This document shows, one piece after another, positions 32,651-38,817 of a stretch of 64,000 nt of DNA. The notes below the pieces were generated by a model, which worked only from the letters and a program-made list of their open reading frames with translations, had not been told where the DNA came from and ran no database searches. A program made the position numbers and the translations under genes. The stretch is from NCBI RefSeq assembly GCF_021172045.1, contig NZ_CP087164.1:1302001-1366000 (forward strand). The letters run 5' to 3'. How positions within the stretch are numbered: position 1 is the stretch's first letter; each line of letters opens with the position of its first letter. Source of the stretch: Capillimicrobium parvum (GTDB lineage: Bacteria; Actinomycetota; Thermoleophilia; Solirubrobacterales; Solirubrobacteraceae).

Positions 32651-32935
32651 ATGCGATACCCCGCCGATCCGCCGGCCGTCGAAGAGATCGGGGCCGTCAT
32701 GCGTGTCGCGGGCGAAACCGGGCACGGCCTGAGAACGCGAGCGCTCATCGTCGTGCTATGGCGCGCCGGCGTGCGGATCAGTGAAGCGCTGGCGCTCGCC
32801 GAGAGCGACCTCGACCGCTCGCGCGGCAGCGTCCTCGTTCGCCGCGGCAAGGGCGGCGCTCCCTCGCCGCTCGCGCGGGCATCCGCAGGCGATTCGCGCC
32901 GCACCAGCTTCGACACGCGCACGCCGTCGTGGTCA
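32651..32935 (+). pseudogene. tyrosine recombinase (phage-type integrase) relic
   Basis: Starts at an ATG at 32651 with a stretch typical of the recombinase catalytic domain: TRALIVVLWRAGVRISEALAL (with the first catalytic Arg in GVRISE), then RGSVLVRRGKGG. After that there is an internal deletion with frameshift. In another frame, AGIRRRFAPHQLRHAHAV carries the HxLRH motif near 32870-32925. The tyrosine nucleophile and intervening residues are missing. It may mark the end of a former integrative element; no att site can be defined. Confidence 0.6.
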
Positions 32936-33020
32936 ACTGGCCCTCGGTGGGCCTGACCGATGATCTTTGCGCGCCGTGCTGGTCTGTACGCCGAATACCG
33001 ACTCACGGGAGGCTGACGCC

Positions 33021-34031: not shown

Positions 34032-34949
34032 GTGAAAGCGATTGTGGTGACGGACGAGGCTGCGGGAACGGCCGGGATGACGCTGGTGGAGCGGCCCGAG
34101 CCGGAACCGGCGATAAACGACGTCCTCGTTCAGATTCATGCGTCGGGCTTCGTCCCGACCGAGATGGCGTGGCCCTCGACCTGGACGGATCGCCGCAACC
34201 GGGACCGAACACCGTCGATCCCTGGGCACGAAATGGCCGGAGTGGTCACCACCCTCGGGTACGGCACGACGGGGGTGTCGGTGGGACAGCGGGTGTTCGG
34301 CCTCGCGGACTGGCATCGCGACGGCACGCTGGCGGAGTATGTCGCGATCGAGGCACGCAACCTCGCGCCGCTGCCGGGCGACATCGAGTTCACCGTGGGC
34401 GCGAGCCTGCCGATCTCGGGCCTGACCGCGTGGCAGGGACTGTTCGATCACGGCCACCTCCAGGCGGGGCAGAGCGTCCTCGCGCACGGCGCGGCCGGCG
34501 CAGTCGGATCGATGGTGACGCAACTCGCACGTGAGGCGGGCGCCCACGTCATCGGGACCGGGCGCGCCGCCGACCGCCAGACGGCGCTCGACTTCGGCGT
34601 GCACGAGTTCATCGACCTCGACAACGACGCCCTGGAAGACGTCGGCGCCGTCGACCTGGTGTTCGACGTCATCGGCGCAGACATCCAGAAGCGGTCCGCA
34701 AGCCTGATCCGGGCCGGAGGCACCCTGGTGAGCGTCGTAGGGCCGCCGGAGGCGCGGCCCGCCGACGGCCTGGCGATCGACTTCGTCGTCGAGTCCGATC
34801 GTGCTCAACTGGGTGAGATCGTCCAGCGGGTGCGCGACGGACGGCTGCGGACCAACATCGGCACCGTCGCGACCCTCGACGATGCCGTCGCCGCCCTCAA
34901 CCCGACCGAGCGGATCACGGGGAAGACCATCATCCGCGTTCGCCCATGA
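34032..34949 (+). CDS. zinc-free medium-chain dehydrogenase (quinone oxidoreductase-like)
   Basis: 305-residue MDR-superfamily protein using NADPH. The GroES-like N-terminal domain (VLVQIHASGFVPTE, IPGHEMAGVV) lacks the catalytic-zinc Cys/His set. The Rossmann domain has AHGAAGAVGSMVTQLAREAG, the AxxGxxG pattern of quinone oxidoreductases. GTG at 34032 follows AGGGG. It stands between an empty intergenic region and a set of relics; the final codons lie against a VOC-family remnant on the other strand. Confidence 0.88.
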   Translation: MKAIVVTDEAAGTAGMTLVERPEPEPAINDVLVQIHASGFVPTEMAWPSTWTDRRNRDRTPSIPGHEMAGVVTTLGYGTTGVSVGQRVFGLADWHRDGTLAEYVAIEARNLAPLPGDIEFTVGASLPISGLTAWQGLFDHGHLQAGQSVLAHGAAGAVGSMVTQLAREAGAHVIGTGRAADRQTALDFGVHEFIDLDNDALEDVGAVDLVFDVIGADIQKRSASLIRAGGTLVSVVGPPEARPADGLAIDFVVESDRAQLGEIVQRVRDGRLRTNIGTVATLDDAVAALNPTERITGKTIIRVRP

Positions 34950-35383: not shown

Positions 35384-38300
35384 ATGACCGCGCTCGGCGC
35401 GGGGACGCAGCAGGGCGAGCAGAAAAGCACCGGCCGCCGCCGCCGCACCGCGATAGCCGTGGCACTCGCGCTCGTTGCGATGCTCGTGGCATGGGCTGCG
35501 CCGGCCGGCGCGGACGGCTGGAGCGCCGCCGGCTCGCTCGGCAGTGCGCGGTGGGCCCAGACGGCGACCCCGCTCAAGGACGGCCGGGTGCTGGTCGCGG
35601 GAGGGCGCGACGCGAGCGGCACCGCGACGGCGAGTGCCGAGATCTACGACCCGGCGAGCGACAGCTGGAGCGCCGCCGACTCGCTCGACACGGGGCGCTA
35701 CGACCACACCGCGACCCTGCTCGAAGACGGGCGCGTGCTGGTTGCGGCCGGGGTCGACGCGAACTTCAACGTCTTGGCGAGCGCCGAGATCTACAACCCC
35801 GCAACCGACAGCTGGAGCGCCGCCGACTCACTCGACACCGGGCACTACGACCACACCGCGACCCTGCTCGACAACGGCCGGGTCCTGGTCGCGGGGGGAG
35901 CCGGCCCGACCAGCTACCCCTCCGCCAGCGCCGAGATCTACGACCCCGCGACCAACAGCTGGAGCACCGCCGACTCACTCGACACGCCGCGCCAGCGCCA
36001 CACGGCGACCCCGCTCGAAGACGGGCGGGTGCTGGTCGCGGGCGGGATCGACTCGAGCTTCAGCGTCTTGGCGAGCGCCGAGATCTACGACCCCGCGACC
36101 AACAGCTGGAGCGCCGCCGACTCGCTCGACACCGAGCGCTACGAGCACACCGCCACCGCGCTCGACAACGGCCGGGTCCTGGTCGCCGGGGGGCGCGAGG
36201 AGGGAGGCAACCCGACGGTCAGCGCCGAGATCTACAACCCCGCGACCGACAGCTGGAGCGCCGCCGACTCGCTCGACACCGCGCGCAGGGAGCACACCGC
36301 GACCCTGCTCGACAACGGCCGGGTCCTGGTCGCCGGCGGAGCTGACTCAAGCGGCGCCGCCTTCGCCAGCGCCGAGATCTACAACCCCACATCCAACAGC
36401 TGGAGCGCCGCCGACTCGCTCGCCACGGCGCGCTACGACCACACCGCGACGCTGCTCGGCAACGGCCGGGTGCTGGTCGCGGGAGGGCGCGATTCGGGCG
36501 GCGCCCTGGCCAGCGCCGAGATCTACCTTCCTCCTGAGAGCTGGAGCGCCGCCGACTCGCTCGCCACGGCACGCAACGACCACACCGCGACCCGGCTCGA
36601 AGACGGCCGGGTCCTGGTCGCCGGGGGAGCCGGCCCGAGCGGCTTCCCCTCCGCCGGCGCCGAGATCTACGACCCCGCGAGCGCCGGCTGGAGCGCCGCC
36701 CAGTCGCTCGCCAGGGCGCGCTCGCAGTACACCGCGACCCTGCTCGACGACGGCCGGGTCCTGGTCGCCGCAGGATTCTCGGGCGGGGCCACAGGCAGCG
36801 CCGAGATCTACGACCCGGCGAGCGGCAGCTGGAGCGCAGCCCACTCGCTCGCCACTGCGCGCGGCGCGCACACCGCGACCCTGCTCGAAGACGGCCGGGT
36901 GCTCGTCGCGGGCGGGGAGGACACGAGCTTCCAACCGACGGCGAGCGTCGAGATCTACGACCCGGCGAGCGACAGCTGGAGCGCCGCCGACTCCCTCACC
37001 ACGGCGCGCAGGTACCACACCGCGACCCTGCTCGAGGACGGCCGGGTCCTGGTCGCGGGGGGATTCTCGGGCGGCGCCGCCTCCGCCAGCGCGGAGATCT
37101 ACGACCCGGCGAGCGACAGCTGGAGCGCCGCCGGCTCGCTCGTCACGGCGCGCTACCACCACACCGCGACCCCGCTCGCCGACGGCCGGGTCCTGGTCGC
37201 GGGAGGATTCTCGGGCGTGCCGCCTCCGCCAGCGCGGAGATCTACGACCCGGCGAGCGACGACTGGAGCGCCGCCGGCTCGCTCGCCACGGCGCGCTACC
37301 ACCACACCGCGACCCCGCTCGCCGACGGCCGGGTGCTGGTCGCCGGGGGAATCGGCTCGGGCGGCGCCGCCTCCGCCAGCGCCGAGGTCTACAACGCCGC
37401 CACCGGCGACTGGAGCGCCACCGACTCGCTCGCCACCGCGCGCAGCGACCACACCGCGACCCTGCTCGAGGACGGCCGGGTGCTCGCCGCGGGGGGACTC
37501 AGCGGCGGCGCAGCCCTCACGGCGACGGAGCTGTACGACTACCACGGCCCCGCCGCCCGCCTCACCCCGACCACCCGCGGCTTCGGCTCGCAGTCGATCG
37601 GCGTCGGCCCGACCGCCGAGCAGGACCTCGAGCTCGAGAATGCCGGTACCGCTGAGCTCGCGATCGACTCGATCGCGCTCGGCGGCGCCGACCCTGGAGA
37701 CTTCGCCCTCGACGACTCCGACTGCGCCGGCTCCGGTCCGGGTCAGCACGCCGGGACGCTCGCCGCCGGCGACAGCTGCACCGTCACGGCGAGCTTCGAT
37801 CCTTCGACGACCGGTGACAAGCGGGCCCGGCTCCTGGTCGAGAGCGACGGAGGGCAGGACTCGAGCGTGCTCATCGGTACCGGCACCGAGGATCCGCCCT
37901 CAGTTCTGACGGCGCCCACCATCCCCAACGGCGCGGCCCCGATGATGGGACAGCGCCTGGACGCCGCGCGCGGGCGCTGGACCAACCAGCCGACGTCCTA
38001 CGCCTTCCAATGGGTGCGCTGCAACGCGGACGGCGTCACGGGCTGCACCGACCTCGCGGGCGCGACGCGCAACCGCTACGTGCCGGGCGCGGCGGACGTC
38101 GGGGGAACCCTGGTCGTGCGAGTGGTGGCGCACAACCAGTTCGGCGACAGCGCCCCGGCCGCGAGCGCACCGACCGGCGTGGTGCAGCCGTCGGTGCCCG
38201 TGCTGCGTACGGCGCCGATGGTGCCAGCGGGCACGCCGCGCGTGGGCGTCAAGATCGGTGGCCGCGCCGGCGCCTGGTACGCGGGGCCCACGGGCTACCG

Positions 38301-38817
38301 CTACCAGTGGTTGCGCTGCGATGCGGCGGGCGACAACTGCGTCGCGGCGGCCGCGGAGCGCACCAGCACCCGCGACGTCAACCCCTACGTCCCCACCGCG
38401 CTGGATGCGGGGGGCACGCTGCGCCTGCGCGTGGTCGCGGTCAACCAATTCGGCGACAGCGCACCGGCCACGACCGCGCCGACCGGGGTCGTCGCGCACA
38501 CCGCCCCCGAGATGCTTGTGGCCCCGCGCGTGCCGAGTGGTTCGCCGCAGGTGGGGGTCAAGGTCGCCGGCCGGTCGGGATCATGGACCGATCTCCCGAC
38601 GTCCTACCGCTACCAGTGGCTGCGCTGCGATGCCGCGGGCGACAACTGCGTCGCGGCGGCCGCGGAGCGCACGAGCACCCGCGACTTCAACAACTACGTC
38701 CCCACCGCGCTCGACGCGACGCGCACGCTGCGCCTGCGCGTCGTGGCGGTCAACGAGCTTGGGGAGAGCGCACCGGCCACGACCGCGCCGACCGGGGTCG
38801 TCGACGGAGGTACCTGA
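35384..38817 (+). CDS. secreted kelch-repeat protein with Ig-like tail, one internal frameshift
   Basis: ATG at 35384, Sec signal (RRRRTAIAVALALVAM...APAGADG), then 14 kelch-type repeats of about 47-50 residues (HTATLLEDGRVLVAGG...SAEIYDPASDSWSAADSL). Then comes a choice-of-anchor-D/HYDIN-like domain (GFGSQSIGVGPTAEQDLELE) and three about 90-residue Ig-like repeats (SYRYQWLRCDAAGDNC). The frame breaks in repeat 12 at about 37215. There GGGCGTGCC stands where the sister repeat has GGGCGGCGCC, a net loss of one base. The first frame runs on in nonsense to 37909 and the second, correct, frame ends at 38817. Restored length would be about 1144 residues. Probably an extracellular or surface protein; function unknown. 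Confidence 0.8.
35530..37540 (+). repeat. 14 tandem kelch repeats (about 141-150 bp each)
   Basis: In-gene tandem repeats that are highly similar at DNA level, for example CACACCGCGACCCTGCTCGA and GAGATCTACGACCCGGCGAG recurring with small changes. Such near-identity makes slippage, recombination or assembly error likely here. Confidence 0.9.

Follow-up and report, generated by a model that had tools for sequence, protein, structure and literature searches.

Computational analysis of a stretch of 64,000 nucleotides of the Capillimicrobium parvum genome, here called the window and numbered from its first letter, identified a gene with fourteen kelch units in which the strands and the loops contrast, and whose reading frame is broken once, with coding signal on both sides of the break. 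The genome (G000) consists of a single contig of 5.95 Mb, of which the window covers positions 1302001-1366000. We consider it likely that this gene specifies a secreted, two-propeller kelch binder whose units derive from one blade, and that its break is a recent mutation or a one-base error rather than a programmed or phase-variable switch. The product would be a probably secreted, putative binding protein (adhesin- or lectin-like) comprising a signal peptide, two tandem seven-bladed kelch propellers, a choice-of-anchor D domain and three Ig-like repeats. We infer that the units arose from a single blade via repeated inter-blade recombination, after which selection may have maintained the strands while diversifying the loops on one face, the putative ligand-binding side; the break in unit 12 would represent a very recent mutation removing the second propeller and the tail, or a one-base assembly error.

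Layout of the kelch array and its frame break

The kelch array spans 35519-37557 and is composed of 14 units; its reading frame breaks once, in unit 12 near position 37217. The motif TGGAGC opens each of the 14 units, whose starts run from 35519 to 37411, and the units measure 141, 144 or 147 nt from W to W. Unit 12, at 143 nt, is the exception, and unit 14 was taken to end at 37557 on the basis of the modal unit length. The upstream frame extends from an ATG at 35384 through units 1-11 and most of unit 12, past which it would continue out of frame until it meets a stop codon that ends at 37909. The end of unit 12 together with units 13 and 14 lies in the downstream frame, whose open stretch spans 37219-38817, and a codon-phase scan placed the frame change at 37217-37219. 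The original prediction had described fourteen kelch repeats with a single-base break in repeat 12, and both elements are confirmed by the unit table, the frame change and the Kelch_4 matches (3.4e-90 for the first part of the gene, 5e-12 for the second). The features of the gene are as follows:

35384-35518, plus strand: gene start and signal-peptide-like N-terminus (basic residues, hydrophobic stretch, Ala-rich end), from the translation, by eye
35519-36541, plus strand: kelch units 1-7, proposed first seven-bladed propeller with irregular unit 7 end, from profiles, the unit table, and a model of 35513-36541 and its matches
36542-37557, plus strand: kelch units 8-14, the second of the proposed seven-bladed propellers, with the interruption in unit 12, from profiles and the unit table
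37121-37263, plus strand: unit 12, 143 nt, with the frame break at about 37217, from the unit table and codon-phase scan
37217-37909, plus strand: out-of-frame stretch of the upstream frame up to its stop, from the open reading frame list; coding log-odds of that frame negative
37549-37848, plus strand: choice-of-anchor D domain (NF012200), 60.8 bits against a cut-off of 45
37911-38817, plus strand: three Ig-like repeats of about 100 residues each, and the stop codon; repeats by eye, Pfam matches below their cut-offs

Pairwise DNA identity between units averages 78% and ranges from 67 to 90%, the upper value being reached by pairs 11/12 and 12/13 only, and the earlier description of the units as near-identical was thus too strong. 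The two sister-repeat strings quoted in the original prediction are both present, in units 11 and 12, and they differ by one substitution in addition to their length. Tandem Repeats Finder returned the array with a score of 1992, a period of 147, 13.6 copies and 79% matches, and because of this score the array is more than a chance occurrence. The end of unit 7 is irregular, exactly at the expected border between two propellers.

Blade number and predicted fold

The first part of the gene has relatives (E up to 1e-20) in 48 of the 145 other family genomes. Units were counted in 47 arrays including that of the window, 46 of them away from contig ends; these derive mostly from this family, with two loci from other families of the order and one paralogue in this genome. 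Groups with fewer than 4 units or less than 100 bits summed, repeat copies of one array, control stretches and loci L001, L003, L004 and L026 were excluded, and in the same count the window yielded 15 fragments, corresponding to 14 units of which one is split. Among the 45 other arrays away from contig ends the commonest unit number is seven (29 arrays), and a further two, L032 and L036, hold fourteen, as does the window. Against a seven-fold reading, 14 of these 45 arrays count six (eleven), five (two) or eight (one) units, although such counts may miss weak blades. Two other loci, L006 and L035, present two sevens each, separated by a gap.

A single-sequence model of units 1-7 (35513-36541; pTM 0.72) contains 28 strands in seven units, and it aligns over its full length to seven-bladed galactose oxidases, with a mean pLDDT of only 69.9. 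The best Foldseek matches by E-value were mostly designed SAKe6 proteins and human kelch domains (TM-score by query 0.61-0.67), which we take to be six-bladed. A second look at the Foldseek list using VIA-align placed the model on a seven-bladed galactose oxidase homologue (Z 33.1, rmsd 2.7, 339 residues). A model of 611 residues (pTM 0.55) showed no strand in residues 1-58 and gave no indication of how the blades are divided between propellers. Two seven-bladed propellers thus represent the most likely reading of the 14 units, as judged from sequence and model, and this suggestion of the original prediction draws support from the unit counts of relatives, from the units 1-7 model and from the irregularity at the end of unit 7.

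Origin of the units

A tree, computed without support values, was constructed from 100 units of 20 proteins, retaining units above 14 bits that cover most of the profile, 13 of which came from the window. The 13 window units form one pure clade, revealing their common descent within this lineage. For eight of the eleven other proteins with at least four units there is no pure clade; L035 and L006 each have one that comprises two units, and L043 has one that holds all five. Identity between units points in the same direction: it averages 0.67 among the 13 units of the window protein, with a best value of 0.75 within the protein and 0.59 to units of other proteins. As the window units form one clade, whereas the blades of most relatives mix across proteins, the array is, by its sequence, a young, lineage-specific amplification. 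The five scored units of L043 (from genome G097; six units counted) are probably another, independent young amplification.

The most alike pairs of units are near neighbours or irregularly spaced (11/12, 12/13, 3/8, 2/4 and 9/11) and are not separated by seven positions, and the pattern of similarity therefore fits repeated exchange between blades. Duplication of a finished seven-bladed propeller was also considered and was rejected, since units i and i+7 are 72-80% identical and so do not stand above other pairs (mean 78%). Of the gain or loss of repeats proposed earlier, the unit tree bears out that units were gained by recombination in the course of evolution.

Possible selection on strands and loops

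The pN/pS ratio was computed over 12 units, units 12 and 14 being omitted. Across all sites it equals 0.77, and the median pairwise dN/dS is 0.73 (unit 12 omitted), so overall constraint on the units is mild. This average conceals a contrast: the strands have a pN/pS of 0.24, as compared to 1.46 for the loop preceding the first strand and 1.60 for the one that links strands two and three, and the remaining two loops have values of 0.84 and 0.73. Using rounded column values, the placement of the variable blocks ranked first of 49 circular shifts and was reached by none of 20,000 random column sets. GC content at third positions is 0.92-0.94, indicating strong codon bias. The strands are conserved and two loop classes appear diversified, a pattern that is suggestive only, because the blocks were chosen post hoc, unit pairs are not independent and codon bias is strong. 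In kelch propellers the loop before strand one and the loop between strands two and three share one face, which is the partner-binding face in Keap1. The combination of conserved strands and diversified loops can serve to illustrate the way in which a new binding face might take form.

A more far-reaching and improbable version would regard the protein as a blade-shuffling binder, in which inter-blade recombination continually reassorts the diversified loops on one face of the propeller, frame breaks are by-products that exchange with a neighbouring unit can reverse, and the population holds a changing set of binding surfaces. The favoured account of a two-propeller binder built from one blade involves past recombination followed by selection on the loops.

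Domain composition, localisation and neighbouring genes

The upstream piece matches Kelch_4 (296 bits), Kelch_1 (239) and Kelch_6 (233), far above the Pfam cut-offs of 20-25, and so has a significant match to the kelch profiles; the downstream piece matches Kelch_4 followed by the choice-of-anchor D domain. A HYDIN-type Ig match, just above its cut-off, overlaps the latter domain, and Pfam SCAB-Ig and IG_AIR9 match one of the Ig-like repeats below their cut-offs. No membrane or wall anchor was seen by eye at the C-terminus. The kelch protein is probably secreted, based on its predicted domains and N-terminus; the earlier description of a surface protein is retained as surface or secreted, given the signal-like N-terminus (by eye) and the choice-of-anchor D domain, though by eye no C-terminal membrane or wall anchor accompanies them. 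The tail has relatives (E up to 1e-15) in 46 of the 145 other genomes of the family, and a contig scan with the tail as query, from which the array was omitted, found a single locus, L028.

The upstream neighbour encodes a zinc-type dehydrogenase, and the downstream neighbours encode an FAD oxidoreductase, a protein with a weak, sub-cut-off cupin match and a LuxR-type regulator; inspection of these flanks by profile found nothing that links them to the kelch gene. The dehydrogenase gene adjoining the array (34032-34946) has relatives of 87% and 81% identity located side by side at approximately 3.709-3.711 Mb of the same genome, and a further relative, at 86%, in genome G002. At 32651-32953 of the window lies a short open reading frame that resembles the start of a phage integrase domain (Pfam 26.9 bits against a cut-off of 27.1) and is perhaps a remnant. 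Three genomes of the same genus, each in approximately 440 contigs, gave no kelch match and no match to the downstream oxidoreductase.

Nature of the frame break

The coding log-odds per codon amount to +0.27 to +0.28 before the break and +0.22 to +0.32 after it, each in its own frame, and are negative in the other two forward frames. The full coding signal continues past the break; coding constraint acted on the second frame until very recently, if it has ceased at all. By kelch topology, the break presumably separates strand two from strand three in blade 12. As deposited, the product would keep the first propeller, lose the end of the second together with the tail, and gain an out-of-frame end extending to 37909. 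Switching is less likely than either a recent disruption or a one-base error, and these two fit the same facts; on a consensus sequence the frame break carries little weight.

The codon-phase scan covered 459 of the 5,953 kb of this genome, in stretches picked by position except for the window and L068, the surroundings of the paralogue. Over 410,783 coding bases of the genome it identified three frame breaks, counting that of the kelch gene; six relatives had one over 432,231 coding bases, and the two counts do not differ significantly (Fisher p 0.36). On this count, within the stretches scanned, the idea of a broadly error-ridden assembly was rejected. Breaks do occur elsewhere in this sequence, since two others were found in the 459 kb. 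At L065:3811-5683 (G000 C1, approximately 3.704-3.706 Mb), a frame change cuts in two the gene for an NhaA-type Na+/H+ antiporter that also has a thioredoxin-like part, the pieces matching adjoining positions of Pfam Na_H_antiport_1 (2-232 and 235-373). At L059:4936-5944 (G000 C1, approximately 1.905 Mb), a candidate frame change immediately precedes a phage integrase domain, the upstream piece being without a Pfam match. From a broader candidate list, ten junctions were scanned against Pfam, of which six had different families on each side, three a match on one side and one, L065, a single split profile.

To a real and recent mutation, by which decay of the gene has begun as in other young propellers, we assign an even chance. 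It is favoured by the two further breaks in this genome, one of which splits the antiporter gene, and by the disrupted repetitive propellers, one of them a kelch protein, reported in sections of PMC9218822. It has to accommodate 1.6 kb of downstream sequence without a stop or loss of codon bias, facts that fit an error equally. A sequencing or assembly error, with the gene intact in the cell, is entertained more tentatively, at somewhat under even. The undiminished coding signal past the break speaks for it, repeats are hard to polish in assembly, and the excess of breaks over the six relatives leans the same way, but without significance; the assembly is not broadly error-ridden by that count, however, and the break lies outside any homopolymer.

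The original prediction had further proposed that frameshift switching could vary the protein between cells, and this claim is unsupported. Inspection of 37200-37230 by eye revealed no homopolymer or short-repeat tract, Tandem Repeats Finder (minimum score 50) reported only the 147-nt array in the kelch gene, and none of the 46 other arrays changes frame; the hypermutable short-repeat tract that marks the switch of phase-variable genes is thus not found. One of these arrays, the seven-unit L030 (G049), has one in-frame stop and is the only such case among the 46. A switch in which inter-blade recombination or slippage toggles the full protein is very unlikely: the adjacent units 11, 12 and 13, about 90% alike pairwise, would make conversion possible, but the mean identity of 78% and the period of 147 nt are not those of a usual substrate for slipped-strand switching. 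Programmed ribosomal frameshifting that joins the two frames is hardly credible, for although both frames carry coding signal, no zero-frame X XXY YYZ heptamer was seen by eye in about ten codons around the break, and the lack of frame change in the 46 other arrays applies here also.

Comparison with known systems

A limited literature search, which says little about print at large, returned no paper on kelch proteins with Thermoleophilia, nor on phase-variable or frameshifted bacterial kelch repeats. The kelch proteins of the same and neighbouring families, such as L032 and L036, resemble the window protein in that several have signal-like N-termini and seven or fourteen units in one frame. 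They differ from it in that their blades, save those of L043, mix across proteins, and several carry other tails, e.g., collagen-like Gly-Pro stretches (by eye). The window protein is predicted to share the seven-bladed kelch fold of galactose oxidase and of the GlxA kelch domain, the best VIA-align match, yet with 166.9 bits against a cut-off of 800 for the NCBIfam GlxA model it falls outside that family.

Sections of Pereira and Lupas 2022 (PMC9218822) describe propellers whose blades are more than 60% alike, occurring across most major families and among these in the kelch superfamily, and blade numbers of WD40 forms that peak at 7 and 14. For example, WRAP of Npun_R6612 from Nostoc punctiforme has, as presented there, 14 blades in a row that make up two seven-bladed propellers, comparable to the arrangement proposed here; WRAP is, however, a WD40 protein and part of a STAND ATPase, whereas the present protein is of the kelch type, has units of 78% DNA identity and looks secreted. 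The same sections report that a non-trivial number of such propellers are disrupted by frameshifts or stops, among them a seven-bladed kelch protein, the frameshifted Kelch-like PYL67592.1 from a Verrucomicrobia bacterium. In that protein a single seven-bladed propeller carries a large deletion as well as a stop, in contrast to the 14 units, one-base break and subsequent open frame of the window gene.

With the globally highly repetitive propellers of that paper, as its sections describe them, the window gene has in common a recent amplification of one blade, blades more than 60% alike (mean 0.67 over 13 units, where the paper uses the median), blades closer within the protein than to those elsewhere (best 0.75 as compared to 0.59) and a break inside the array. 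In the points tested the kelch gene therefore agrees with the picture drawn in those sections, and it extends, by a clear kelch case of 14 units, the published view that propellers are built anew from single blades and are often soon broken.
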